This document shows positions 17,586 through 42,735 of a stretch of 42,735 nt of DNA, piece by piece. Under the pieces are notes generated by a model, which did not search any database, had not been told where the DNA came from, and saw only the letters and a program-made list of their open reading frames with translations. Numbering within the stretch: the stretch's first letter is position 1; every line of letters starts with the position of its first letter. The position numbers and the translations under genes were made by a program. The stretch is from a virus. The DNA lies in IMG/VR virus record IMGVR_UViG_3300043331_000306, positions 1 to 42,735 of that record. The stretch is one strand, 5' to 3'.

Positions 17586-17589
17586 CTCG

Positions 17590-17606
17590 TGTACCAAATT
17601 GGTACA
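17590..17606. repeat. 17-bp dispersed palindrome, copy 5
   Basis: Exact TGTACCAAATTGGTACA filling the 30-bp gap between the coiled-coil gene and the large terminase gene, ending 9 nt before ATG 17616. Outer bases ACTCG and CAAGT extend the symmetry with one mismatch. Confidence 0.95.
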
Positions 17607-17615
17607 CAAGTGACC

Positions 17616-19217
17616 ATGACACCAGAAGCTAGAGTCATCGAGACCCTCTTCCACGTCGTCGATAAGAGGACGCAGGAAGTCGTGCAGTTTGCGTTGAACG
17701 AAGCTCAGCGTCGTGTGGACGAAGCGTGGTCGCATCGTATGCTCATTCCGAAAGCGCGCCAGAGGGGTATCTCCACATACTTCCTGGCGCGCTCTGCTGT
17801 TCGCTGTATGGGCAGACCGAATACCAGCGCAGTCGTCATCTCGCATGAGTCGGAAGCGACTGAGCGTATGTTTGCTCGGGTTAAGTTCTTCCTCGACACG
17901 ATGAAAGGGCCGAAGCCAGTCATCAAGAACAACTCCCGGCATGAGCTGACCTTCCCGAAGACCAACTCTACCTTCTGGATCGGTACGGCAGGAAGTCGGA
18001 AGTTCGGTCGTGGCGATACAGTCACCGACCTCCACTGCTCCGAGATAGCCTACTGGCCTGACGCTCGCTCCCTGATGGCTGGCTTGCTACAGGCAGTTCC
18101 GAAGACTGGCTGCGTATCGGTGGAGTCGACTGGGAATGGAATGGGGAACTGGTATCACAACGCCTGTATGAGGGCGGCGAAGGGACAGTCCAGCTTCGGC
18201 CTCGTGTTCCTGCCGTGGCACGAGGAGCCTCAGTACAGGCTGCAACTGGAGCCAGAAATCGCTGATGCCCTGATGTCCAACCTGCGCGAGGATATCGAGG
18301 AGCCAGAGCTAGTCCAAGCCTACGGCCTGGATGCTGGGCAACTGGCCTGGCGAAGGATGGTGTTGGAGGATGAACTCGAGGGCAGCCTGCGAGACTGGAA
18401 GCAGGAGTACCCGAGCTGCCTCGATGATTGCTTCCAGATGGCAGGTGGTGGTATCTTCACCAACATCCGCTATGTGGAGACATCACAGTGGAAGAGGCAC
18501 GATCAGTGGATGCACGTACTGGAAGGACACCCGAAGCCTGGACACATGTACGTGCTGGGAGGTGACGTAGCGGCTGGAGTCGGCGCGGACTCGAGCGTGA
18601 TGGAGATCTTCGACCTCATGGAGCAAGAGCAGGTCGGGGAGTGGGTGTCGAATAAGATCGAGCCAGATGTCTTCGGCGCGCGAGTTGTCGCCATGGCCAA
18701 ACACTTCAACGAAGCATACATCTGCGTCGAGAGCAACAATCATGGGATACTGACCCTGGCCACCATCCGAGACTTGTCCTATCCCTCAATCAAAGTCTAT
18801 AGGACTCCGCGAGCGAACTCTGGCCGCGGTAAGGATGATGTGAAGAAGGTAGTCGACCTCGGCCACCGCACGAGTGGCACTAGCAAGCCATTCGTGATTG
18901 GACTACTGCGGAAGACCCTCCGAGACGAATGGACTATTCACAGCCCAATCCTCAAGTCCGAGCTATCCTCCTTCATCGAGACCGAGACAGGAGACCTGGA
19001 GGCTGCAGAGGGCTGTAACGACGATACTGTAATCGCAGCTGCAATGGCCGCCTACGTCCGAACGAAGGCCACGCTGGCTCTGATGGAGCATACTCCTCTT
19101 CAACTCCCTCAGGGGGCATCACCACACTCGCTGGATTCGATGATCGAGGAGCTTACCTCCTCCCAGCCTGGCCTTCCCTTCCCTAAGAGCATGACGGACT
19201 ACTGGCCTGGACTATGA
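17616..19217 (+). CDS. terminase large subunit
   Basis: A 533-residue packaging motor. The ATPase half has a Walker A-like KARQRGIST (46-54) and Walker B HCSEIAYW (140-147), followed by a coupling segment ESTGNG. The RNase H-like nuclease half has Asp317 (GGDVAAG), Glu372 (CVESNNHG) and Asp469/Asp470 (CNDDTVIA). All terminase landmarks are present. The frame is open back to GTG 17589, where the palindrome would be read as YQIGT; ATG 17616 is preferred, though no clear ribosome site precedes it. The next gene overlaps by ATGA. Confidence 0.93.
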   Translation: MTPEARVIETLFHVVDKRTQEVVQFALNEAQRRVDEAWSHRMLIPKARQRGISTYFLARSAVRCMGRPNTSAVVISHESEATERMFARVKFFLDTMKGPKPVIKNNSRHELTFPKTNSTFWIGTAGSRKFGRGDTVTDLHCSEIAYWPDARSLMAGLLQAVPKTGCVSVESTGNGMGNWYHNACMRAAKGQSSFGLVFLPWHEEPQYRLQLEPEIADALMSNLREDIEEPELVQAYGLDAGQLAWRRMVLEDELEGSLRDWKQEYPSCLDDCFQMAGGGIFTNIRYVETSQWKRHDQWMHVLEGHPKPGHMYVLGGDVAAGVGADSSVMEIFDLMEQEQVGEWVSNKIEPDVFGARVVAMAKHFNEAYICVESNNHGILTLATIRDLSYPSIKVYRTPRANSGRGKDDVKKVVDLGHRTSGTSKPFVIGLLRKTLRDEWTIHSPILKSELSSFIETETGDLEAAEGCNDDTVIAAAMAAYVRTKATLALMEHTPLQLPQGASPHSLDSMIEELTSSQPGLPFPKSMTDYWPGL

Positions 19218-20458
19218 GAGTTCTCATGCTCAGCAAGGAGGGAGACGGTTGCGGGATCGCCTGGCAGCTTGTGCGGGAGGGGCACTCAGTTGACTTGTGG
19301 ATTAAGCGACCAGAGTATGAACACACACTTCGAGGGGTTGTGAATAGAATACCATCCTTCAGGCCGCATGTTGCCGATGCTGACTTGGTGCTATGCGACT
19401 TGGTGGGGTTCTCCGAGTACGCACCACTATTCAAGCGCCTGGGCAAGCCTGTACTTGGATGCAGCGATATAGCGGATATGTTGGAACTCGATCGCCGCCG
19501 TGGACTGGAGGTACTCCAGCGAGCTGGCGTCGCGCTGCCGACCACGCACTACTTCGACAGCCCTCGCAGCGCTGCTACATTGAAGTGGACTCACGAACCA
19601 GGCTACGTGGTGAAGCCCAGTAACAACCTCCACGTCAGCAAGACCTACATCTGTGAGCGTGAGGATATATACAAGTGGACACTGTCCACATATGACTCAA
19701 GTCAGGAGCTGATCGTCCAAGAGCTAGTCAACGGTATAGAGGTCTCCACTGAGGGTTGGTACAATGGGAGGGACTGGATAGGCCCCTTCAATCACACCTT
19801 CGAGGAAAAGCCTCTCGCCGCCGGAGGCTCAGGAGTGATGACTGGCTGCATGGGCAATGTAGTCGTACCAGTCGAACAGCCTGACAAGCTCGTGCGTGAG
19901 ACAGTGATGCGACTGGAGCCTATGTTGAAGAAGATGTCCTACAAAGGGCCAATCGACATAAACTGCATTGTCACCGATGACAGTGCCTACGCCTTGGAGA
20001 TAACGCCACGCTTCGGCTACGATGCCATCGAAGCGCTAATCCATGGCTTCAAGGAGCCCTTTGGCGGCTTCCTCTTCGATGTAGCAACGGGGATAGCGAA
20101 GACGATGCCCCTACGTGGCTTCGACCCTCTCATCTCTGTTCGAGTCGTGATGCCTCCCTACCCTGATCAGCGGCCCAGTAAGGATATGAGGGGTAGTCCA
20201 GTGTTGGGACTCGAAGGCCCTGGTGGATCAGTCTTCCCTTGCGACGTCTACAAGGATGGATCAAAGTACCACTACGCATCAAGTGACGGAGTGTTGGCGA
20301 AGGTAGCAGCGAACGGTCGGGATGTGAGAGAAGCGCGGCGACGAGTGTACGCTAGAGTTGACGACATCGTGGCGCTCGGCGCATACTACCGCAATGACAT
20401 TGGCGCGAGAGTTGAATCCAACCTGAGCAAGCTCAAGCAACAGGGGTGGCTATCATGA
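19214..20458 (+). CDS. PurD-like ATP-grasp enzyme inside the packaging operon
   Basis: A 414-residue protein with the layout of phosphoribosylamine-glycine ligase (PurD): N-terminal nucleotide-fold start (MRVLMLSKEGDGCGIAWQLV), the GKPVLGCSDIADMLELDRRR segment, then ATP-grasp motifs YVVKPSN (131-137), GIEVSTEGWYNG (174-185), TGCMGN (210-215), YKGPIDIN (243-250) and LEITPRFG (261-268). In PurD the last motif is usually E-x-N-x-RFGDPE; here the Asn is Thr and DPE is lost, so substrate or metal binding may differ. It overlaps terminase by ATGA and portal by ATGA, so it is made with the packaging proteins. It may ligate an amino acid or amine to a nucleotide, DNA base or protein; which is unknown. 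Confidence 0.8.
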   Translation: MRVLMLSKEGDGCGIAWQLVREGHSVDLWIKRPEYEHTLRGVVNRIPSFRPHVADADLVLCDLVGFSEYAPLFKRLGKPVLGCSDIADMLELDRRRGLEVLQRAGVALPTTHYFDSPRSAATLKWTHEPGYVVKPSNNLHVSKTYICEREDIYKWTLSTYDSSQELIVQELVNGIEVSTEGWYNGRDWIGPFNHTFEEKPLAAGGSGVMTGCMGNVVVPVEQPDKLVRETVMRLEPMLKKMSYKGPIDINCIVTDDSAYALEITPRFGYDAIEALIHGFKEPFGGFLFDVATGIAKTMPLRGFDPLISVRVVMPPYPDQRPSKDMRGSPVLGLEGPGGSVFPCDVYKDGSKYHYASSDGVLAKVAANGRDVREARRRVYARVDDIVALGAYYRNDIGARVESNLSKLKQQGWLS

Positions 20459-22170
20459 GCAATGGATATCTGAATGGTCAGCCGGATGTTGAGTGGTGGA
20501 TGACTCAAATCCGAAAGGGTATGGCCTGGAGGAAGAAGTACGCACTGGAAGCTCGGTGGCCTCAGTGGAGACAGTACTATCGTGGTCAGTGGCCACGTGG
20601 CACTCTCCCTGTGAACCTGTTCTTCAGGATGCTGCGGACAGTCGTCCCGCGCATCTACTTCCGCAACCCCTCCATCTCCGTCCAACCGTCTAAGCCTGGG
20701 CTTGAGCAGCAGATGTTTGCTCGCCTCATCGAGCGCATCGACAACAGGCTCATTCGCACGATGCGAGTGAAGAATCAAATCAAGCAGATCGTCCACAATG
20801 CTTGGATGTTCGGCACTGGAGTTGGGAAGCGTGGCTTCGCACAGGAGTATCATCCAACTCCCAACATACTAGGTGGTGGTAGTGGCCCAGTAGGGCAATC
20901 AGGCGGAGTCCTTGGGCGGACAGAGTATCACGCTACCATCCGAGACAACATGCCGTGGTTCCTGGAGAATCCGACTGGAGGCTTCATCGTCCCGTTCGGC
21001 AGTCGCAACTTCAACGAGTGCCGCTGGTATGCAAGCTGGTATAGGAGACCACTTGATGATCTACAAGAAGACCCACGCTTCAAGAACACTCAGCACCTCC
21101 GCGGTAGCCATCATTCTCAGTATCGGCCGGTGGGTTTGGAGGACACTAGCGAGGCTGCAGTCAACGAGGTGGACTTGGTGGAGGTGAGAGATACGAAGAC
21201 GAAGAAGGCCTTCGTCCTCGCTCCCTACGGACAGTCAGATAAGAAGGTGCTGCAGTTCGGTGATGACACGATGCAAGTCAACGGTCGTACTCCCTTCTAC
21301 ACAGTCGTCTTCAATCCAGACGATGAGGTCTGCTGGGGTGTGCCAGACAGCCAGGTGCTGGAGCCGCAGCAGCTGGAGATGAACGAGATTCGCACGTTGG
21401 AGATGAAGCATCGTCGGCTGGCTATCATGAAGCTGCTCTACAAGCGGAAGGCTCTCGATGAAGCCTCGCTGGATAAGATACTGAACGGGGAGGTTCTCGC
21501 CGCCGTACCAGTCGATGGTGAGCTATCTGACATAGACACCATACAGGTCGCTGACATTCCCCGCGCTCTGATGCTGGCTGGGCAGGAGGTGCTGAATGAT
21601 GTTCGAGAGAACATGGGCTTCTCCAGGAACCAGTTCGGAAACTACGCTGAGGGCAGCGCTGACAGAACGGCCACGGAGTCGAAGATCATCGAGATGGCAT
21701 CGGAGATCAGGATCGACGAGCGCCGGGATGCGATCGCTGATCTGCTAGTGGATGTCTTCGAGGATATGCACGTAGATATCTTCGATCGCTGGCAGGGAGA
21801 TATTGTGGAGCAGGTCCTCGGCCCTGACGGTATCCCGCTGTGGGTAGCCTTCAAGCCCGCGATGCTCAAGGCTGCTCAGTACGAGCTGCAGATCGACCCG
21901 GACAGCGCAGTACCGGAGACTCGTGAGGTCAGAATGAACAAGGCCCTCGTGACCTACGAGCGGCTCAAGACCAACCCTCTCATCGACCCCGAACTCCTCA
22001 CGAGCTACCTCCTCCACTCTCTCCATGGAGTACAGTTCGACAACATGCTCCGAACGTTGCAACAGTTGCGCTCGAGCGGGGCTGCCGGTGGTACACCTGA
22101 AAATCCGCTCACCGCAGATCAGTACATGCAAAGGCTCGCTGCTCCGCGAAGTGGGCAACAAGGGGCTTGA
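20455..22170 (+). CDS. portal protein
   Basis: A 571-residue protein starting MSNGYLNGQPDVEWWMTQIR. ATG 20455 overlaps the previous stop and has AGGGG 8 nt upstream; GTG 20446 is an alternative. It follows the terminase and precedes scaffold and capsid genes, and has the typical mix: N-terminal helices (WPQWRQYYRGQWPRG), a stretch with VPRIYFRNPSISVQPSKPG, a long central helix region (EPQQLEMNEIRTLEMKHRRL) and an Ala-rich C-terminus. It should form the dodecameric ring through which DNA enters the capsid. Confidence 0.85.
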   Translation: MSNGYLNGQPDVEWWMTQIRKGMAWRKKYALEARWPQWRQYYRGQWPRGTLPVNLFFRMLRTVVPRIYFRNPSISVQPSKPGLEQQMFARLIERIDNRLIRTMRVKNQIKQIVHNAWMFGTGVGKRGFAQEYHPTPNILGGGSGPVGQSGGVLGRTEYHATIRDNMPWFLENPTGGFIVPFGSRNFNECRWYASWYRRPLDDLQEDPRFKNTQHLRGSHHSQYRPVGLEDTSEAAVNEVDLVEVRDTKTKKAFVLAPYGQSDKKVLQFGDDTMQVNGRTPFYTVVFNPDDEVCWGVPDSQVLEPQQLEMNEIRTLEMKHRRLAIMKLLYKRKALDEASLDKILNGEVLAAVPVDGELSDIDTIQVADIPRALMLAGQEVLNDVRENMGFSRNQFGNYAEGSADRTATESKIIEMASEIRIDERRDAIADLLVDVFEDMHVDIFDRWQGDIVEQVLGPDGIPLWVAFKPAMLKAAQYELQIDPDSAVPETREVRMNKALVTYERLKTNPLIDPELLTSYLLHSLHGVQFDNMLRTLQQLRSSGAAGGTPENPLTADQYMQRLAAPRSGQQGA

Positions 22171-23534: not shown

Positions 23535-24536
23535 ATGGCTGTCCCAACCCTCACCGAGGTACTGGACAACTTCTACACGTCCACATGGCAGCACATGAAG
23601 AGCGATGTCGCCGATCAGTACTTCGACGCGACTCCCTTCTGGTGGTGGCTGAAGGAGCATGGCAAGATTGAGCCTATCCGCGGCGGTCGCTTCGTAACCG
23701 AGCCCCTGCAGTTCGACAAGTCGGATGGAGTGCAGTGGGTCGGCAGAGGCGGAACCGTGAAGCTCAACGACTTCCAGTTCCTCTCGCTCGCCAAGTTTGA
23801 CTGGCGCTATCTCGTCGGCACGATCGTTCGCTACGGCGTGGACGATCAGCAGAACTCCGGCAAGATGGAGATCATCAACCTCGCCAACGCGAAGATGGAG
23901 AACGTCAAGAACTCCCTCATCACGGAAGGTGAGACGCGCCTATTCGGCAATACCGGAGCGATCGTCGCCGGCACGACTACCGAGGACGCCCAAGCCTTCG
24001 ACGGTCTGCAGCACCTCGTCGCCGACGACCCCACTGCCAGCGTCGAAGTCGGCGGCTTCAACCAGTCAACCAATACCTGGTGGCGCAACAAAGCGCGCAA
24101 CATGACCGGCAAGTCATTCGCCACGTTCGGCCTGAGCAACATGCGCACGCTGCTGAACGACACGAGCAACAACCTGCGTCAGGACAGCCCGGACATCATC
24201 GTCTCGGGCCAGACGCCCTACGAGTTCTACGAGGACACCGTGCTCCCCGTCTACCGAGTCACGAACCGGAAGATGGCCGACATGGGCTTCGAGAACATCC
24301 AGTTCAAGGGCCGTCCGATGGTCTGGAGTCCGAGCTGCGCCAACACTCGCATGTACTTCCTGAACACCCGGTTCATCAAGTACTTCTACGATCCGGCACT
24401 GTTCTTCGACATGACCGAGTGGAAGCCCATCCCAAGCCAGGTCAACGACCGCGTCGCTCACATCGTCACCGCCTGCGGCTTCAAGGTCAGCCGGCGCCGG
24501 TGCCAGGGCGTACTGCACACCATCGACACGCAGTAA
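23535..24536 (+). CDS. major capsid protein
   Basis: A 333-residue protein starting MAVPTLTEVLDNFYTSTWQH with AAGGAG 7 nt before the ATG. Its size, position after scaffold, and features such as WVGRGGTVKLNDFQFLSLAK (E-loop-like) and PDIIVSGQTPYEFYEDTVLP (P-domain-like) fit an HK97-fold capsid protein. The C-terminal part (RFIKYFYDPALFFDMTEWKP) is the expected A-domain region. It has no obvious cleaved N-terminal domain. Confidence 0.85.
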   Translation: MAVPTLTEVLDNFYTSTWQHMKSDVADQYFDATPFWWWLKEHGKIEPIRGGRFVTEPLQFDKSDGVQWVGRGGTVKLNDFQFLSLAKFDWRYLVGTIVRYGVDDQQNSGKMEIINLANAKMENVKNSLITEGETRLFGNTGAIVAGTTTEDAQAFDGLQHLVADDPTASVEVGGFNQSTNTWWRNKARNMTGKSFATFGLSNMRTLLNDTSNNLRQDSPDIIVSGQTPYEFYEDTVLPVYRVTNRKMADMGFENIQFKGRPMVWSPSCANTRMYFLNTRFIKYFYDPALFFDMTEWKPIPSQVNDRVAHIVTACGFKVSRRRCQGVLHTIDTQ

Positions 24537-32052: not shown

Positions 32053-33222
32053 ATGCCAGATCCACTAGTCAACGTCCCGAAGATCTCTCCTGAAACCGGA
32101 GAGCATCTTCTGAGCAGAGTCATGGACAGAGAAGCTCAGCGCCAGCAAAGGAAGACGGTGGTGAACTTCTTCGAGGCTATCCAAGCAGCTGGCAGCCGCG
32201 AGCGAGCTCTGGACGTGGTGAGGAATTACTCTACGGAGTTCCGTAATGAGAAGGACATCACCACTGCGTTCAGGGCGGTGGATGAGTTCTATCCCGAATC
32301 ATCGAGGGAGGTGAAGCAGGTCACTGTGTACAACGCACAGGGACAGCCGACTACTACCTTCATGTCAGCGCAAGAGGCTGTGGGACTCACGCCGGAGGAG
32401 GTGGTGCGACGCTTCGGAGAGGGAGCATCGCTGACCAAGCCAGACATGGCGGACTTCTACAGTCAGCCAGATGAGAAGGGGGCTGTGCAAGTACTTGGTC
32501 GGTTCCCTGTCAGTCAGCGGCCCCAGGGTGCAGTCACGCTGCCTGAGCTGACCGCGGCCAGGCAATTCCGAGCGGAGGAGCGGGCGGATAAGCGCTTTGC
32601 GCTGAGCGAGGAGAAGTTCAGATCGTGGTTTGATCTGGCAGAGAAGCGCTGGATGGAGTCGCTGAAGAAGCTCGGCGGGACTGCAGAGGACAAGGATCGA
32701 ACCTTCGCTCGGCAGATTCTCAACGATGCGACCAGACTCACGCTCACATCCCTTAATGGTCGAGTGCTGGCAGATGGCTCCTTCTTCCTGGGAGACGACA
32801 ACAGAGTGGATATTTGGGAGAAGCGACTGCGCTACATCTCGAATGCGATGGAGTCGAATCCAGAGCTCTCTCCCAATCTCGCGCTGAAGCTGGCGAACGA
32901 TGCGGCGAAGCTGTATCCGCTCAAGTCGACTGATCCGCTCGCACCGAAGGAAGAGCCACCGAAGCCTGCAGCGGAGAAGCCAGGGGGGCTCAGCCGAGCA
33001 GTGGATGCAGTCAGCAGAGCGGTTGGCTTGGGCGGAGAGAAGAAGCCAGCAGCGAAGCCTGGAGAGAAGAAACCCGCTGTCGAGCAAACGCCAGCGCAGC
33101 AGATCAAGCAGCGAGCGACAGAGATTACAGGTCGCGCTGATCTGACTGATGATCAGAAGAAAGCTGCGCTCGCCAAGCTGCGTGAGATCGCTCGCAAGAA
33201 CAACGTCAAGGTGGATTTCTAA
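32053..33222 (+). CDS. internal virion protein, medium
   Basis: A 389-residue protein starting MPDPLVNVPKISPETGEHLL with GAGG 7 nt upstream. Helical throughout, with charged segments (EERADKRFALSEEKFRSWFD) and a Lys/Pro/Ala-rich linker before the last helix (EPPKPAAEKPGGLSRAV; KKPAAKPGEKKPAVE). The end (DLTDDQKKAALAKLREIARK) is a compact helical module. It is probably ejected with DNA. The stop overlaps the next start (TAATG). Confidence 0.66.
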   Translation: MPDPLVNVPKISPETGEHLLSRVMDREAQRQQRKTVVNFFEAIQAAGSRERALDVVRNYSTEFRNEKDITTAFRAVDEFYPESSREVKQVTVYNAQGQPTTTFMSAQEAVGLTPEEVVRRFGEGASLTKPDMADFYSQPDEKGAVQVLGRFPVSQRPQGAVTLPELTAARQFRAEERADKRFALSEEKFRSWFDLAEKRWMESLKKLGGTAEDKDRTFARQILNDATRLTLTSLNGRVLADGSFFLGDDNRVDIWEKRLRYISNAMESNPELSPNLALKLANDAAKLYPLKSTDPLAPKEEPPKPAAEKPGGLSRAVDAVSRAVGLGGEKKPAAKPGEKKPAVEQTPAQQIKQRATEITGRADLTDDQKKAALAKLREIARKNNVKVDF

Positions 33223-36200
33223 TGCCACTCGATCTGTCGGATGAAGCGCTGGGGCTGCCGACTGCACCGGCGGCCAAGAAAGGGAACGGCCTCGATCTGA
33301 GCGACGAGGCTCTCGGCCTGCCGCCAGTCGAGACGAAGCAGCCTCGCAGTGGACTAGGCATCCTGCCAGGCCCGCTCGGTATCCTCCAGCAGAAGCTCGC
33401 GCCGGAGGTGCAGGAGGAGATGCGCGCTGCCTGGGAGGGACTGTGGAGTATGGGTAGTGCAGCCTACGGTGGGCTCAAGGGAGTGTTCAAGGGCGGAGTT
33501 GCAGCTACAGCTGGACTACCGTTCGGAGAGGTCTTCAGGGAAGAGTTCGACTCCACCGTAGAGAACGCAGCGGAGATATACAAGCCGCTGTCGCCCGAAG
33601 GTCCTACGCTCACGCATAAGCTGGGGGATATGCTCACTCGAGCTGTGCAGTCGAGCGGAGACTTCGTGATGGAGAAGGGACTGCCGCTTCCGGGGCCGCT
33701 AGGTATACTACAGCAGCGGGGAATGGTGAAAGGCCCTGGAGCAGGATCACCGGCCGCGGCAGCTGGGACGCAAGCCCTCGTCACCCTGGCAATGCTGGCA
33801 GCTCCGCTCGGTCGCAGGCAAGCGAAGGCTGGAGTGCCTCATCTCCCAACGTGGGAGGAGTTTGCAGGGAAGTATCCCGAGGCGGCGAAGGCGATCGACG
33901 CTAGCTCCCTCGGTGCTGTTCGCTGGCAGGAGGTTCGTGGCGCTAGCATCGCTGACATTGTAGGGAAGCAGATGGATGCAGAGCTCGGACTCAAAGGTGA
34001 GGCGGCGAAGCTACCCTTTGAGACAAAGGCTGCAATGGTGTTCGACAAGGTAGCGCCGAACGTCCCGCTGGGCGAGAAGCTGCAAGCTGTGCGAGCATTG
34101 AAGAGGAAGATCACTGAGCTCGACGCGGCGAGAGTTTCGTTCTCCCAGCAGCGTGGACTGCCGGCTCCCTCGGCACTCGAGGGCCCTATCACCGTGACGA
34201 AAGATGGCGTAGCGCTGACAGCGGAGCAAGCGCGTGCGCTAGAGCAAGAGTGGAGGACGAAGACTCCTTCACAGCGCGCAGACGAGTTGGGCATCAGTGT
34301 CGTCGGGCAGCTGAAGAAGCAAGCGAACAACGTGCTGAAGCATGAGCCAGGCTCTCCAGAGTACAACATGGAGATGTCTGCGATGGAGCGCATGTGGAAG
34401 CAAGCGTTTCCAGATGAGTACCTTGGGAAGCGGAGCGAAGCCCTGGACGCATTCATCAACTTCCGCGGCGACATGAGCTATCCACAGATACTTGAGAAGC
34501 TCGGCCCGGCGCGCTCCGAGGTGAAGGCAAGAGCGCGAGCGTGGAGGAAGATGGAGGAGGGAGCCATCGACATCGAGGGGATGGAGTATCTCCTCAACTC
34601 GTTCCGCGATCTGCCCAATCAGCCAGTTCTCAAGCGCGCTACCATTGTCGGTCAGCTGAACAGGCAGGGAGTCCCGGAGGCGGAGAAGCAGGCCGTGCTG
34701 CGCGCACTCCGTGACAAGGATACGATCACGCAGAAGGAGCTAGTCGGGAATGTAGCGATGGATATACTGCCGCTCAAGCCGGAGAAGATCGAGCTGCAGC
34801 CGTGGGACATCTTGGATGATGCGCCAGCGGAGTTTAAGATAGGGATTCGTCCTGGCACTGCAACCATCCGCGTCTGGGAAGGGCCAGTCAAGCACGGCAT
34901 CGAGACGAATCATCCAGAGATCTACGGCGACAGCGGGATCGCGCATACGCGCTTCTTCGATCGCGCTGGGACGAGGAGCATCGCCGAGATTCAGAGTGAC
35001 CTGATGCAGGGTGGGCTGAGTGCTCCTCAGCCACCGCGAGCCATCATGGATGCGATGGGTACAGTGGCTATGGGCCTGGAGCGTGGAGACTTCACTGTTC
35101 GTGATGTCGCTACGCAGGGAGGCTTCTTCCAGACGGTTAGAGAACAGTTGTATCTCAGCGAGACGAGAACACTGGACTATAAGCCAGATGCGCTAGTTGT
35201 AATGATCGACCGCAAGATCAAAGCGCTGGAGAAGGAAGTACCAACTGACACTGCAATCCGCCAGCGCATCCAGCCACTCGAGAAACGCTGGTATGAGCGC
35301 ATCATCATGGAGGAGAACAGGCTCGCAGCGCAGGAGGGAGTGATGAGGATGCGTGTGCCTACGCCTGAGACAGTGGCGAAGGTGGAGTTTTTCCCTACCA
35401 ACCGTGTTCAAGGAGAGCATAAGCTTAGCACACCTATAGTCGATCCAGAAAGCGGAAAGACTATAGTTAGAGCTCTTGTCACTGACTATGGGTCTGTCCT
35501 ACCTCTATTGGAAGATGGTAGCACTCTAGTCTCTGGCGGCAGGCCCAGGCTAGTAGCAGAAATAGATAAACAAATCCCTCGACAAGTTGCGCCCGCTCAC
35601 CAAACCATCCTCGACTTCTACAAGCGCGACGTGGCCGCCTTCGCTCGCGCTCGCTACGATGCCAAGGTAGTCGCGGACGAGTTCAACAACACCTGGCTCG
35701 AGTGGTCAGTCAAGCCTGAGGATGCGACGAAGAAGATCCCTGCCTTCGGAGGTCGGCAGCGTGGCGCTATCGACATCCCCGACTGGGAGGCCGTACAGAA
35801 AATGCGCCAGGCTGGAGCGACCGCAGCTCAACGCACAGCCGAGCGTGGGTGGGGAGTGCCGACTCCGGCCGACGATCAGCTCTACCAGAAGACTCAGAAG
35901 GCCTTCGAGGATAGTCGAGCGGCTGAGGTGGAGGGGCATAAGATCACTCTGGCCGGAGCGCTCAAGCGGCTGCGCCAGGAGACCGTGGCGCACGACTACG
36001 ACTTGCGCGTCGAACTCGAGCGCGCTGGCCCCTACGGAGACAAAGCAGTCCAGCGACTAGCTCTGCAGAACGGAGCGACGATGGCGGCGAAGTCTCGCAT
36101 GGACGCTATCAACGAGAACGTGTTCTCGAACCTCACTAGCGCCGAGAAGCGAAGCGTGGACGAGCTGATGAGGCTGCGTCGCATCATCGAGATTGACTCG

Positions 36201-38570
36201 TATAAAGGAGTAGGGAAGCACAAGCATCCGGAGGGAATTACTGGGCCGGAAGCTGAGGCCGTCGCGCTTCGGATGAAGAGAGAGCTGGGGGATGAACAGT
36301 TCGCTAAGATCTATGATGCGACGAATAGGGTCATGGCGGAGTACAAGGGCATCCTCAATCGCCGCTTGGAGAATGGACTGCTCAGTGAGGACAGCTACCT
36401 AAAGCTGATCCACTTCGACTACAGCCCTACGGAGTTCATCGACCTCATCGACCCGATGCAGACCTACACGGTGAAGGGGCAGAAGATCAGCGTGCGAACG
36501 AGCGGCGTCCCCTACCTCGAGCGTGGGAAGAAAGGCCGCGTGGTGATGGACAGCCAGCTCCTACTGGCCGAAGCGCTCGTCCGCTCCGAGAACGCGATCT
36601 TCAAGAACGATACGCTGAAAGCGCTGCACGAGTTGGCGAAGCAGGCTCCGGATAATCAAGTGGTGAGTCTGCCGAAAGCGAGTCTCATCGGCAAGGCTGG
36701 CACGGACAAAGCGTACATGAAGACTACGCCGAAGGGACAGGTGGCACTCGGCGTTCGCTTTGAGGGACGACAGGAGTTCGTCCTCATGCGAGACGACCTG
36801 GCGGAGCAGTTCGTGCGGCGGCCACAGATCATGTCTGAGTTCGTCAACACGATGGCGAGGATTGCGTCGGGCAGTGCGGTGGTCAAAGCGACTGCGACGA
36901 CCTACAATCCTACGTTCATCGTAGCGGGCTTGCCGATGGACGTACTCCATACGTGGCTCGCTTCCAGCACATACAGCCGACACTTCCCGAAGTTCGTCGG
37001 ACAGATGGGAGGTGACCTCATAGCCACGGCGAAGGATGCCTGGACAAAAGGGCCGGAGTATCAGCAAGCTCTGCGTGAGGGCTTGGGCTCTGCGTTCATG
37101 ACTCACGAGGGCCGTGGCTTCACCGGCATCACGGAGAAGACAGTGAGCATAGCAGAGCGCCAGATGATGCCGCGCTTCGACAGGCTCAAGTCTGCACTGT
37201 CTTACATGAATGAAGCAGCGGACATTTGGGTGAGGATGGCGCACCGCCACAGGCTCATCAGTCAGGGATTGCCGAGCGAGCAAGCAACTGGAATTGCACG
37301 CAATAGGCTGGACTACTCCGCCGGCGGCGAGTTCACTCGCGCAGTCGACACGGTGATTCCCTATACGAACGTCGCAGTCCAGGCGCTAGCGAAGGTGGCG
37401 AAGCAAGCCAATCGCGACCCAGCAGACTTCGCCACGAAGCTGGCCTGGGCGGGAGGAACTATTGCTGCGTGGCAGATGGCGAACATGATTTCCAGTCCGG
37501 AGACATGGCAGCAGATACCAACGGACGTGAAGCTGCGCTACCTCCCAATTACCTTTGGCGATCAGTGGTACATCCTGGACGCTGATGGAAACAAGCGCTA
37601 TGTGTATATGCCAGGAGTGCGCCTCGATGCAGTCGTCGAGCCCCTCTCGGCGACTCTCGTCGCAGGGTTGGAGAGTGCAGAGTTCGGCCGACCGCCAGAC
37701 AGGATCATTACCGAGGCTCTGCAGAACACGAACCCTGTGTTCGAGTTTGCTGCGCCGCCGACTATCGAGGCGATCAAGACCTACATGTCGAACTACGACG
37801 CCTTCACAGGTCGGCCGATCAGCCCTCAGTTCGGTCAAGTCAAGCCGGAGGATGAGGGCACGACCTTCGGCCGCGGTCAGCCGCCAGCGCTACTCTCTCA
37901 GCATATCAGCGGAGCAACAGGGCTTTCGGCCCCGCGCTTGGACGCGGCAGCAAGGAAAGTGATGAACACAAACAACTTGTATCTCGCTCTGGCAGGCTGG
38001 GGATACAAGCAGGTCTTCGGCGAGGTAGACCCACGCACAATGAGTCAGTCGACGGAGGAAATGCTGCTGAGGAATCCAGCAGTGCGTCCGTTCGTTCGAC
38101 TCACGAATCCGTCCACACGGTACTTGCGCGACATTGAGGAGCGGAGGATGGAGGAGGGTTCGCGGCGCAAGCAGATGACGGACAGCATAGATGACTTGCT
38201 CTTCCAGGTGAGGAAGGGGCAAGCGAACATCGAGCAGGTTCGCACCTACATCAACAATCAGCCAGCAGAGGAGAGGGAGTGGCTGTCGCAATATGCAGTG
38301 GTCGGGCACCGCGTTAAGGAGATCATGAACCGCTACGGTGCGAGTGAGGGGATACCGAATGAGAGCTGGTGGAGAGCGGTAGCGACACTCCCGCCGAGAG
38401 CTCGAGCGCAGGAGTTTTACGCACAGTGGCTTAGCGCAGACGCAGCGGACAGGCGACGGATGCAGGGGATTGCGCAGACCCTCCACAACGCAGGTGCAGG
38501 GTTCTGGAGTGAGAACTTCCAGCGCGAGCTAGCTAAGGAGCGGCAGCTCCTCGGAACGGAGCAACGCTAG
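33222..38570 (+). CDS. giant internal virion protein (1782 residues)
   Basis: The largest gene in the window. The N-terminus carries LDLSDEALGLP twice (residues 3-13 and 24-34). A central region near 570-590 contains GIAHTRFFDRAGTRSIAEIQ followed by SDLMQGG, as in large polyvalent proteins. The C-terminal third (ALSYMNEAADIWVRMAHRHR; IPYTNVAVQALAKVAKQANR) resembles ejected phage proteins of the LPD38 type as I recall it. It is probably an ejected core protein that helps DNA across the envelope. No lytic transglycosylase motif was confirmed. Residues about 727-790 are encoded by visibly more AT-rich sequence. Confidence 0.75.
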   Translation: MPLDLSDEALGLPTAPAAKKGNGLDLSDEALGLPPVETKQPRSGLGILPGPLGILQQKLAPEVQEEMRAAWEGLWSMGSAAYGGLKGVFKGGVAATAGLPFGEVFREEFDSTVENAAEIYKPLSPEGPTLTHKLGDMLTRAVQSSGDFVMEKGLPLPGPLGILQQRGMVKGPGAGSPAAAAGTQALVTLAMLAAPLGRRQAKAGVPHLPTWEEFAGKYPEAAKAIDASSLGAVRWQEVRGASIADIVGKQMDAELGLKGEAAKLPFETKAAMVFDKVAPNVPLGEKLQAVRALKRKITELDAARVSFSQQRGLPAPSALEGPITVTKDGVALTAEQARALEQEWRTKTPSQRADELGISVVGQLKKQANNVLKHEPGSPEYNMEMSAMERMWKQAFPDEYLGKRSEALDAFINFRGDMSYPQILEKLGPARSEVKARARAWRKMEEGAIDIEGMEYLLNSFRDLPNQPVLKRATIVGQLNRQGVPEAEKQAVLRALRDKDTITQKELVGNVAMDILPLKPEKIELQPWDILDDAPAEFKIGIRPGTATIRVWEGPVKHGIETNHPEIYGDSGIAHTRFFDRAGTRSIAEIQSDLMQGGLSAPQPPRAIMDAMGTVAMGLERGDFTVRDVATQGGFFQTVREQLYLSETRTLDYKPDALVVMIDRKIKALEKEVPTDTAIRQRIQPLEKRWYERIIMEENRLAAQEGVMRMRVPTPETVAKVEFFPTNRVQGEHKLSTPIVDPESGKTIVRALVTDYGSVLPLLEDGSTLVSGGRPRLVAEIDKQIPRQVAPAHQTILDFYKRDVAAFARARYDAKVVADEFNNTWLEWSVKPEDATKKIPAFGGRQRGAIDIPDWEAVQKMRQAGATAAQRTAERGWGVPTPADDQLYQKTQKAFEDSRAAEVEGHKITLAGALKRLRQETVAHDYDLRVELERAGPYGDKAVQRLALQNGATMAAKSRMDAINENVFSNLTSAEKRSVDELMRLRRIIEIDSYKGVGKHKHPEGITGPEAEAVALRMKRELGDEQFAKIYDATNRVMAEYKGILNRRLENGLLSEDSYLKLIHFDYSPTEFIDLIDPMQTYTVKGQKISVRTSGVPYLERGKKGRVVMDSQLLLAEALVRSENAIFKNDTLKALHELAKQAPDNQVVSLPKASLIGKAGTDKAYMKTTPKGQVALGVRFEGRQEFVLMRDDLAEQFVRRPQIMSEFVNTMARIASGSAVVKATATTYNPTFIVAGLPMDVLHTWLASSTYSRHFPKFVGQMGGDLIATAKDAWTKGPEYQQALREGLGSAFMTHEGRGFTGITEKTVSIAERQMMPRFDRLKSALSYMNEAADIWVRMAHRHRLISQGLPSEQATGIARNRLDYSAGGEFTRAVDTVIPYTNVAVQALAKVAKQANRDPADFATKLAWAGGTIAAWQMANMISSPETWQQIPTDVKLRYLPITFGDQWYILDADGNKRYVYMPGVRLDAVVEPLSATLVAGLESAEFGRPPDRIITEALQNTNPVFEFAAPPTIEAIKTYMSNYDAFTGRPISPQFGQVKPEDEGTTFGRGQPPALLSQHISGATGLSAPRLDAAARKVMNTNNLYLALAGWGYKQVFGEVDPRTMSQSTEEMLLRNPAVRPFVRLTNPSTRYLRDIEERRMEEGSRRKQMTDSIDDLLFQVRKGQANIEQVRTYINNQPAEEREWLSQYAVVGHRVKEIMNRYGASEGIPNESWWRAVATLPPRARAQEFYAQWLSADAADRRRMQGIAQTLHNAGAGFWSENFQRELAKERQLLGTEQR

Positions 38571-40065: not shown

Positions 40066-41646
40066 TTAACGAATACCGAGGGCTTTTTTAACTGCACTGC
40101 GAAACTCTCGATCTGAGTGGCACTCTGGTATCTCCTGCATCCCCGTTGGATTCATCTTCGGGTCGAAGCCTCCCCAGTTCCAGCCTACCTTCGTATCAGT
40201 TGGGATGGTGAAGGAGCGACCGTTGTACTCCATTGTGGGGGAGATGTAGTCGTCGATAGCCTGGGAGATACGCCAGGCTTCAGGAGAGTTGAGTAGGCGC
40301 TTCGGAAACTGGTAGAGGACGGAGTCATGCGTTTGTGCGAGCAGGTCTACGTTCGCCTTCACGCTGATGCTCTCATCCTCGTAGCTGTCACACATTCCTT
40401 GATTGATGGAGTCCACTACCGTGGATTGAGGGATTGCGCTGTAAGCAGACTTCCACAGATCCTTCCCCCACTGGTCAAGAAAGCGGATGCGGCGGCCGAA
40501 GCAGTTGACCAACATCCTGTCGTTTCGAGACAACTGCTGCTTCACCCATTCATGGAATTGAGTGCGGATGCCGACGTAGACTCGGTGGTAAGCAGTGATG
40601 ATCTGCTTAGCTTCGTTCTCCAGTATCTCATTCATGAGGGCGAACATACGGTACTCTTCATCGTAGTTCAAACCGTGGTTCGCTTTCTTCCCCGCTTGCC
40701 TCACACTCATAGTGCGCGGCATGAATGGATGCCATGGTTTCAAGCGTGGATTGCTCAACCTCAGCGCACGAATCTCCTCTTCGTCGTTCCTCATGCCGAT
40801 GAGCTTGTGTTCCTCCCGGACGAGCGCGGCGACGGCTTCCTCTTTCGCTTCCTTTCTCAACTCGTAGGAAAGACGCTCGATGGTCATCATAGTGCCAGTG
40901 TACAAGTGAGGGTCGATGCCATTCTGGACTACGTGCAACATCCGAGCGTCACCGGACAAGTAGGCGACGACCACCCACTCCGCTTGCCGCTTATCCTTCT
41001 CGATGAAGAAGTAATCGTCGTCCGCTACGAGGAACTTCTTGAACGCCGGGTCGAGAGCTTGAAGGTTGCAGCCAGTGTCAAAGACAGTCTTGCCCGAGGA
41101 GAGGCGACCGAATTTAGTTCCTCGTGGATTGTAAGCTCCCCGAAGACGGTTGTCTGAGTCGAATTGGATTTCAAGGTAACTGCTGCGGAGTTTGTCGTAT
41201 CCGCGTATCTGCTGGATAAGACTCGCTTCACGGAGTCCCTTACGCTGTGAAGTACCTCGCGCAATTCGTTGTAGTGCTCGATCGTCAGCGGTGACTGAGC
41301 CATCCCTCCCCTTGTACGGCGGAATCCCTTTCTCGACGTAGAAGTAGTTTTGGACTTGCTTAGGACTGTTCGGATTGATTTCATAGCCGACGATCTTGTA
41401 GAGCTCCTCGAGCGCTGTGTCCCTTGCCTTGGCGATGTCATTGCTGGTCTCCTGTAGAGCGGCCCGATCGACCTTGATCCCACGAGTCATCATGAACATC
41501 AGCGGCTCATACAGCCGGATGGTCATGTCGTAGGCAGGGCGGAAGCCCTCCTCGTTTAGGTCATTCCAGAAGGCGTTGCGACACTCGAAGGTGCAAGCTG
41601 CGTCGATGGCGTTGTAGACGTAGAGTTTGTCGTCAGGAGTTCTCAC
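40066..41646 (-). CDS. family A DNA polymerase, with the last part of a split exonuclease domain
   Basis: A 526-residue protein from GTG 41646. Polymerase motif A is DKRQAE (218-223), motif B RQAGKKANHG (316-325) and motif C QTHDS (438-442). Two residues are unusual: a His at the position usually Phe or Tyr in motif B, and Ser instead of Glu after HD in motif C. Its N-terminus (YVYNAIDAACTFE) carries the ExoIII Tyr11-x3-Asp15 motif, while ExoI and ExoII lie in the upstream gene. GTG overlaps that gene by GTGA and has AAGGAG 5 nt upstream, so it is translated on its own. Confidence 0.9.
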   Translation of the reverse strand: MRTPDDKLYVYNAIDAACTFECRNAFWNDLNEEGFRPAYDMTIRLYEPLMFMMTRGIKVDRAALQETSNDIAKARDTALEELYKIVGYEINPNSPKQVQNYFYVEKGIPPYKGRDGSVTADDRALQRIARGTSQRKGLREASLIQQIRGYDKLRSSYLEIQFDSDNRLRGAYNPRGTKFGRLSSGKTVFDTGCNLQALDPAFKKFLVADDDYFFIEKDKRQAEWVVVAYLSGDARMLHVVQNGIDPHLYTGTMMTIERLSYELRKEAKEEAVAALVREEHKLIGMRNDEEEIRALRLSNPRLKPWHPFMPRTMSVRQAGKKANHGLNYDEEYRMFALMNEILENEAKQIITAYHRVYVGIRTQFHEWVKQQLSRNDRMLVNCFGRRIRFLDQWGKDLWKSAYSAIPQSTVVDSINQGMCDSYEDESISVKANVDLLAQTHDSVLYQFPKRLLNSPEAWRISQAIDDYISPTMEYNGRSFTIPTDTKVGWNWGGFDPKMNPTGMQEIPECHSDREFRSAVKKALGIR

Positions 41647-42713
41647 GCGTTCTCCTTAATGTTGTCGAAGCGCACCATGTTCTTCCAGTACGCTTGGTTG
41701 CCACAATAGAGTGAGCCCAGGAAGTCAAGCGACTTCAGCATCTCCGGGAACATCACGCTATGAGCAATCATTGTATCCTCGATCATGTCAGGAGTCAATG
41801 GCTCCACGATCACTCCGACCCGAGTCGCTAGAAAATGTATGTCGAAGATACCGTTTTGGAATACCTTGACTATCTTGCGATTCCCCAGCACACGAGCCAT
41901 CCCCTTCCACAGAGCTACCTCCTCGGCCTCGTCGAAGACGTTGTGGTAGAAGGGGAACGACATGGCCTGTGTCGGCGAGTCCGCGAGGGCGATGGCTGAG
42001 ACTTCATAGTTGACGACTTCAATATCAACCGAGAAGCGTGGGCAGGAGTTAAAGTAGTCGAGCCACTCAAGAGCATTTCTAATACCGCTCGGGAGGAGTA
42101 TCTCGCGCTCAGGGCGGCGGAGCTCAGGAGTCGTCGCCTCTTCCTTGATCTTCCTGAGGTCGTTGGTCGTATAGTAGCGTTGGATGTAAGGGCTAATGCG
42201 ATCACCGCTCTTCTTCTTAGGACCGCCACCGTAGAGTGAGGACGCTGGGTGAATGATGGGGATAGCCTTCGCACATGAGAGCTCAGGCCGCGTCTCCACC
42301 ACGTAGCCACGTATCCGATTGATTCTCCACGGAGGAGCTTCGCCACAGATCGCAGCGAGAGCGGGGTTGCCAGCCGGAACCAGTATGTTTGCCTTCGTCC
42401 TGTTAAGTTCATCGATAAGCTCATTGACCCATACCCTCCCGGCTTCAGTGAATCGCATCGTGCGTTCGTCGAAGTACGGACTTATGTCATTGCCAGGCGG
42501 CTTCTCCTTGACTACGTTCGTGATGTAGATGTCGTGGCGAAGTATCCCGGCCGAGTGCAAGCACTGGTCGAGGACACCTCCGGCGGGGCCAACGAAGGGA
42601 CGGCCGAGCTTCGCCTCGATTGTCCCAGGAGCCTCACCGATCAGTGCGATACGAGCGTTGAGGTCGCCCTCAGGCCCGACGAGCGTGCGCGCTGCTTGAG
42701 GGAAGAAGCTCAT
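41643..42713 (-). CDS. uracil-DNA-glycosylase-like domain fused to the first part of a 3-prime exonuclease
   Basis: A 356-residue protein from ATG 42713 (AGGGG 5 nt upstream); GTG 42728 would add five residues, and numbering here is from that GTG. Residues 27-175 have the UDG family 4/5 pattern: GEAPG (31-35), GRPFVGPAGG (42-51) and HP at 160-161. The Cys pair that begins the iron-sulfur site in family 4 is absent. Residues 225-361 carry ExoI Asp235-x-Glu237 (SVDIEV) and ExoII Asn292...Asp296 (QNGIFD), then stop before ExoIII. It could act in proofreading or uracil handling at the fork, presumably paired with the polymerase encoded next. Confidence 0.85.
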   Translation of the reverse strand: MSFFPQAARTLVGPEGDLNARIALIGEAPGTIEAKLGRPFVGPAGGVLDQCLHSAGILRHDIYITNVVKEKPPGNDISPYFDERTMRFTEAGRVWVNELIDELNRTKANILVPAGNPALAAICGEAPPWRINRIRGYVVETRPELSCAKAIPIIHPASSLYGGGPKKKSGDRISPYIQRYYTTNDLRKIKEEATTPELRRPEREILLPSGIRNALEWLDYFNSCPRFSVDIEVVNYEVSAIALADSPTQAMSFPFYHNVFDEAEEVALWKGMARVLGNRKIVKVFQNGIFDIHFLATRVGVIVEPLTPDMIEDTMIAHSVMFPEMLKSLDFLGSLYCGNQAYWKNMVRFDNIKENA

Positions 42714-42735
42714 TTGTGCCCCTGGCACTGAACAT

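Follow-up and report, generated by a model that had tools for sequence, protein, structure and literature searches.

A PurD-fold protein encoded between terminase and portal in uncultured phages, and its relatives lacking the active site

Why should a phage encode a PurD-like ATP-grasp protein between its large terminase and portal genes, and would an enzymatic activity suffice to account for the gene being there? The locus lies in a stretch of DNA (hereafter the window) that makes up an entire virus record (42,735 bases). An earlier note, made from the sequence alone, had drawn attention to the gene and assigned it to the packaging segment. We have followed up this proposal by profile searches, structure prediction and comparison of related loci.

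The gene and its predicted fold

The ORF and its position were as described in the earlier note (Table 1). The PurD-like ORF (414 aa) begins with ATG and ends with TGA, and its G+C content at the three codon positions (0.60/0.42/0.64) resembles that of the adjoining genes. The 3′ end of the terminase gene falls 4 bases inside the ORF and the portal ATG generates a second 4-base overlap, with the stop codon (junction sequences ...CTATGAGAG... and ...ATCATGAGCAATGG...), so that the overlaps reported on both sides are indeed present; with the portal start placed at the GTG at 20446, as in the mechanical ORF list, the downstream overlap would measure 13 bases. The portal protein has 272 related stretches in IMG/VR and no match among 50,697 phage records. 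Together with its weak recognition, this places the phage in an uncultured lineage.

Table 1. Genes and sequence elements considered in this study (positions in the window; residue numbers refer to the PurD-like protein)
Feature	Coordinates	Strand	Remarks
Large terminase subunit, directly upstream of the PurD-like gene	17589..19217	+	PHROGs phrog_2, E=2.6e-18
PurD-like ATP-grasp protein	19214..20458	+	TIGR00877 E=2.8e-20, below cut-off; AlphaFold2 pLDDT 93, PurD fold
K134 codon	19613..19615	+	Position of the family's ATP-binding lysine; invariant in 36 homologues; present in 23% of site-lost copies
FNHTFEEK, residues 192-199	19787..19810	+	In place of PurD DHKR; invariant; deleted or changed in site-lost copies
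TGCMGN, residues 210-215	19841..19858	+	In place of PurD TGGMGA
D248-x-N250	19955..19963	+	Absent from PurD; invariant in intact copies
EITPRFGYDA, residues 262-271	19997..20026	+	Altered metal motif; subfamily hallmark E-x-T-x-R-x-G
Portal protein of uncultured lineage, directly downstream of the PurD-like gene	20455..22170	+	Weak match to phrog_332 head-tail adaptor
Major capsid protein	23535..24536	+	phrog_9953 major head protein, E=1e-36

The match to TIGR00877 (the NCBIfam purD model) scores 72.5 bits, below the curated equivalog cut-off of 288, and the Pfam domains GARS_A and GARS_C score 27.6 bits (against 27) and 28.9 bits (against 34.8), respectively. PurD chains in the PDB are retrieved at E=1.4e-14 with the single sequence and at E=1.5e-29 with a profile of 36 viral homologues. 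AlphaFold2 yields a model (pLDDT 93.2, pTM 0.91) whose best 15 PDB matches are all PurD/GAR synthetases, with TM scores of 0.72-0.78 by query length; further matches to PylC, PurK, PurT and biotin carboxylase point to the ATP-grasp fold. Query coverage by the top hit in a library of predicted viral structures is poor (TM 0.46). Structure prediction, which the earlier note had recommended as a check, is thus in line with its assignment. Relative to PurD/GAR synthetases (TIGR00877; PDB 2yw2, 2ip4, 3lp8), the protein shares the whole fold, the domain order and the C-terminal domain with YRxDIG, at approximately 20% identity, whereas the DHKR, TGGMGA, E-x-N and RFGDPE motifs are changed. The predicted fold is thus that of PurD, whereas the family is not. 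Score, motifs and context rule out an ordinary PurD or an auxiliary purine gene, and uphold the earlier opinion that this is not a stray metabolic gene.

A subfamily with altered motifs

Alignment of 36 viral homologues revealed 53 invariant columns, indicating that the motif pattern reflects more than chance. The lysine, glutamate and arginine of the ATP-grasp nucleotide and metal site (K134, E262 and R266) are invariant in the window protein and all 36 homologues. EIT and RFGYDA stand where PurD has E-x-N and RFGDPE, exactly as initially read, and T264, D270 and A271 are invariant as well. Similarly, FEEK and TGCMGN take the places of DHKR and TGGMGA; within the latter segment G211, C212, G214 and N215 never vary and T210 and M213 nearly never. 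The corresponding family-wide readings are FEEK, TGCxGN, E-x-T and RxGYDA. At the TGCMGN position, homologues from archaea, bacteria and the bog/lake phages read TGE(M/Q)GT. Since the phosphate-loop region is also altered, the window protein reading VVKPSNNLHVSKT where PurD is glycine-rich, the claim that the domain order and most motifs are kept holds for the fold but was generous as to the motifs. The low TIGR00877 score and the replacement of DHKR, TGGMGA and RFGDPE by strictly conserved alternatives suggest that the substrate is not that of PurD.

The E-x-T reading might be taken for a peculiarity of this one protein. However, E-x-T-x-R-x-G is common to homologues from Halarchaeum, Roseomonas and the bog/lake phages, as are an E-H-K and a D/N-x-N segment; this identifies E-x-T as a subfamily hallmark and rules out its being a defect of one protein. 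The window gene is a member of a distinct E-x-T subfamily of PurD-fold ATP-grasp proteins, found also in other phages and on a few cell plasmids. The cellular homologues (Halarchaeum WP_123078225, Roseomonas WP_207415351 and Sphingomonas WP_187715999), labeled either “phosphoribosylglycinamide synthetase C domain-containing” or hypothetical, share the hallmark and carry TGEMGT, a conserved E-H-K and a D/N-x-N segment; they differ in having no phage context and in lacking the STEGW, NHT and TGCxGN motifs. Homologues with PurD activity, free of packaging genes, would have spoken against the initial proposal; free-standing homologues do exist, but they have the same non-PurD motifs. The bog/lake phages, represented by MW202796 (ct2os315) and 49 IMG/VR loci, also encode full-length members with an intact site, but are unrelated phages in which the gene comes after virion genes of ejection type and at a large distance from terminase and portal. 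The homologue in the Sphingomonas daechungensis plasmid NZ_CP060781.1 (L049 7489-8789) is divided between two adjacent ORFs, and a SET-domain gene on the opposite strand immediately adjoins it. The annotation of MW202796.1 misses a PurD-like gene of the E-x-T type that is complete and specifies 443 aa (L043 20001-21332, L043 being MW202796.1 from 42140); its close relatives in 49 IMG/VR loci lie beside ejection-type genes.

PurK and PurT are ATP-grasp enzymes that likewise lack the Asn of E-x-N. Judging from the alignment and by analogy with these enzymes, the metal site may have shifted so as to use D248 and N250 together with E262, the first two residues being possible replacement ligands for metal or substrate. 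The joint loss of D248, N250, E262 and R266 in the relatives described below agrees with such a shift.

Genomic position and loss of the active site

Scans anchored on the ligase returned 42 and subsequently 80 viral loci; in almost all of these the terminase lies upstream and the portal downstream where the contig extends that far. Scans anchored on the capsid and portal genes sampled the lineage independently of the ligase. Whether recovered through ligase, portal or capsid queries, loci from a diverse uncultured phage lineage have the PurD-like gene between TerL and portal, which bears out the claim that it is a stable part of this segment. In a more distant clade the gene order is retained with other genes inserted, and in L085 the PurD-like gene comes after the capsid gene. 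The 4-base overlaps are common among relatives, not universal. In some more distant relatives (L084, L085, L088, L254, L255 and the bog/lake lineage) the gene is located elsewhere, usually still near virion or ejection genes, indicating that not every phage with the gene links it directly to terminase or portal. The idea that the ligase has an obligate partner next to it was rejected, as most ORFs in the gaps flanking intact copies are unrelated to one another; the exceptions are a HAD-like ORF, marked by (I/L)DFDGV(I/L)HSY, in three loci (L036 9345-9779, L120 3266-3700 and L040 7624-8004) and a single family within the distant L075/L078/L079/L080/L082/L084/L089 clade. The HAD-like ORF follows the ligase in some phages and precedes it in another.

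The 96 distinct proteins encoded between terminase and portal occur in two states. K134, E176, K199, N250, E262 and R266 are all present in 63 of these proteins, and 65 count as intact if E176 is allowed to vary; about a third (approximately 30) have lost the active site. Many relatives thus occupy the same slot without an active site, a situation unlike that of PurD, and the enzymatic role put forward in the earlier note falls short as a full explanation. In site-lost copies R266 is mostly replaced by G, E262 is variable and the FEEK-TGC segment either carries changes or is missing. Catalytic residues are nearly or wholly gone (D248, R266 and G268, 0%; E262, 3%; N250 and T264, 10%) while residues of the fold core are largely retained (G185, 97%; G245, 93%; L238, 80%; G181 and W182, 77%). 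A shifted acidic metal ligand was considered and rejected: inspection by eye of alignment A4, where the E262 column reads R, K, N, S, D, S, R, G, Q, D, K, E, A, D, revealed no conserved acid adjoining it. The site-lost proteins of L133, L134 and L136 are approximately 350 aa long and miss a large part of the first ATP-grasp half.

All the same, site-lost frames are open and lie in the same slot. Pairs of site-lost genes with unsaturated synonymous sites give dN/dS values of 0.04-0.22, against 0.06-0.18 for intact pairs, values that are rough because synonymous divergence is high; still, the persistence of open frames of approximately 390 codons over such divergence leaves little doubt that the site-lost form is under selection. 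An alignment of 14 site-lost members has 26 invariant columns of its own, and the AlphaFold2 model for a site-lost clade (pLDDT 90.6) has PurD structures as its best structural matches. No intact second copy was found in eight site-lost records of 33-44 kb, each of which carries a single copy. The site-lost relatives therefore combine the traits by which viral pseudoenzymes are recognized, i.e., loss of catalytic residues, purifying selection and a predicted fold that is kept; the window copy is intact. Their retention under selection suggests that the protein is kept for more than catalysis. Site-lost proteins mostly diverge faster than TerL and portal, a trend that could reflect arms-race evolution. 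The PF13148 primase, tried as a marker, did not cleanly separate intact from site-lost genomes.

Since outgroup homologues are intact, site loss is the derived state. On a tree of TerL plus portal, about 10 label changes are needed, at least 6 of them by well-supported (starred) branches; the tree of the PurD-like gene needs 2 and joins long branches, with the corresponding warnings. The active site was lost at least twice and possibly many times, and gene exchange between phages is possible. Seven rows of the terminase-portal tree form a clade in which the gene is reduced to a short N-terminal remnant or missing altogether. Remnants in the terminase-portal gap (L127 3222-3605, L129 4416-4790 and L111 3370-3951) resemble the N-terminal domain only, as though just this domain had been retained; the matches are weak (L111, E=3e-4; L127, E=1e-3), the L129 ORF being similar to that of L127.

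Possible roles of the protein

The simplest account of the intact and site-lost states would be an enzyme that also binds a component made along with it. We assign a probability of roughly 0.45 to the reading in which the protein is a ligase in the window's clade and has, besides, a fold-dependent, non-catalytic role in packaging or head formation that persists where catalysis was lost. The strictness with which intact copies are conserved speaks for catalysis in them, the selection acting on site-lost copies for a role needing the fold only, and the constant terminase-portal slot makes packaging and head proteins the first candidates for binding. In the window's clade the protein would most likely be an active carboxylate-amine ligase that depends on ATP, does not use phosphoribosylamine and glycine as its substrates, and has its metal site probably shifted to D248/N250/E262. 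The second role in the lineage would be tied to co-made head or packaging proteins and probably consist in binding one such component. It would explain why relatives devoid of catalytic residues keep the protein, its place and its selection; the clade left with a remnant or nothing suggests that this role, too, is dispensable. We also propose, tentatively, that a PurD-fold enzyme was captured as an assembly or packaging component by a whole uncultured lineage, with ATP-dependent ligation linked to head building in some phages and a dead part or binder in others.

A metabolic enzyme fold has become fixed in the packaging operon of a wide uncultured lineage, in intact and dead forms under similar selection. 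This provides a natural series for studying how enzymes turn into non-catalytic viral parts; if the capture proposed above is true, a conversion from enzyme to structural protein has been caught at intermediate stages in one genomic slot. The finding points to a ligase substrate linked with head assembly, and cautions against annotating viral genes of this kind automatically as “purD” or as auxiliary metabolic genes, since either label would mislead. Reuse of inactivated enzymes as viral structural proteins, the fold being likewise kept after site loss, is a theme of PMC11410667 and has been described for eukaryotic viruses, whereas here intact and site-lost forms share one slot in one phage lineage. 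Among open-licence papers we found no published account of a PurD-like enzyme between terminase and portal. Phage ATP-grasp enzymes have been described as RNA ligases and R2K peptide ligases (PMC7824862) and as members of amidoligase sets (PMC3890496, PMC6209634). The sets with ATP-grasp, amidoligase and GATase in LUZ24-like UFV-P2 (PMC3890496) and TC6 (PMC6209634) are likewise phage-encoded, with an unproven amide-ligase role; unlike the window gene, the UFV-P2 ATP-grasp protein (291 aa) is an early product within a three-enzyme set. The relevant passages of these three papers and of PMC9503650 describe no PurD-like protein at the terminase-portal position. Searches of the window ORFs, many small ones excepted, against Pfam and PHROGs revealed no amidoligase or glutamine amidotransferase partner in the record, which may be incomplete.

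Several alternatives bear on the same data. One, which we consider unlikely, is that of an auxiliary metabolic enzyme making a small molecule, derived from a nucleotide or an amino acid, for the infection, with the late operon providing only timing and the site-lost copies in decay. The invariance of active-site residues in 65 of the 96 proteins, the complete loss of the gene in some relatives and the existence of cellular homologues away from phage genes (alone in Halarchaeum, beside a type III PKS and an aminotransferase in Roseomonas) would all fit. Decay, however, would not keep 340-405 intact codons with dN/dS of 0.04-0.22 across divergent genomes, and would not be expected to produce a 12-member site-lost clade with invariant residues of its own.

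A conflict gene, too, might evolve fast at the protein level, give up catalysis and be lost often, the intact form modifying or consuming a host immune signal or target and the site-lost forms serving as binders or decoys. In PMC9503650 and PMC5512222, enzymes encoded near terminase and portal are proposed as packaged effectors. Against such counter-defence, which we judge rather improbable, the motifs of intact copies are very strictly conserved over large divergence, no MuF or portal fusion was seen and no PurD-like immune substrate is known. More improbable still is that the ligase modifies some component of the virion, be it the capsid, the portal or an ejected protein, and has no separate structural role: the late, packaging-linked position and the proximity to ejection-type proteins on the L255 contig and among the bog/lake phages are in favor of this, but site-lost relatives persist with no intact copy found in the eight records. 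Finally, some phages have modified bases to which amino acids or amines are attached, but DNA hypermodification of this type, suggested in the earlier note, has very little likelihood given the existence of site-lost relatives and given that the window ORFs searched include no partner resembling a thymidylate synthase, a hydroxymethylase or a base kinase.

Two further ORFs were noted elsewhere in the window. One (41643-42728, minus strand) fuses a uracil-DNA-glycosylase domain (E=1.7e-19) to a 3′-5′ exonuclease domain and adjoins a separate ORF for a family A DNA polymerase (40066-41646); the polymerase is seemingly split, with the glycosylase attached to the exonuclease part. The other (33222-38570, plus strand) specifies a 1782-aa protein with a weak match to LPD38 (large polyvalent protein), possibly an ejected virion protein.
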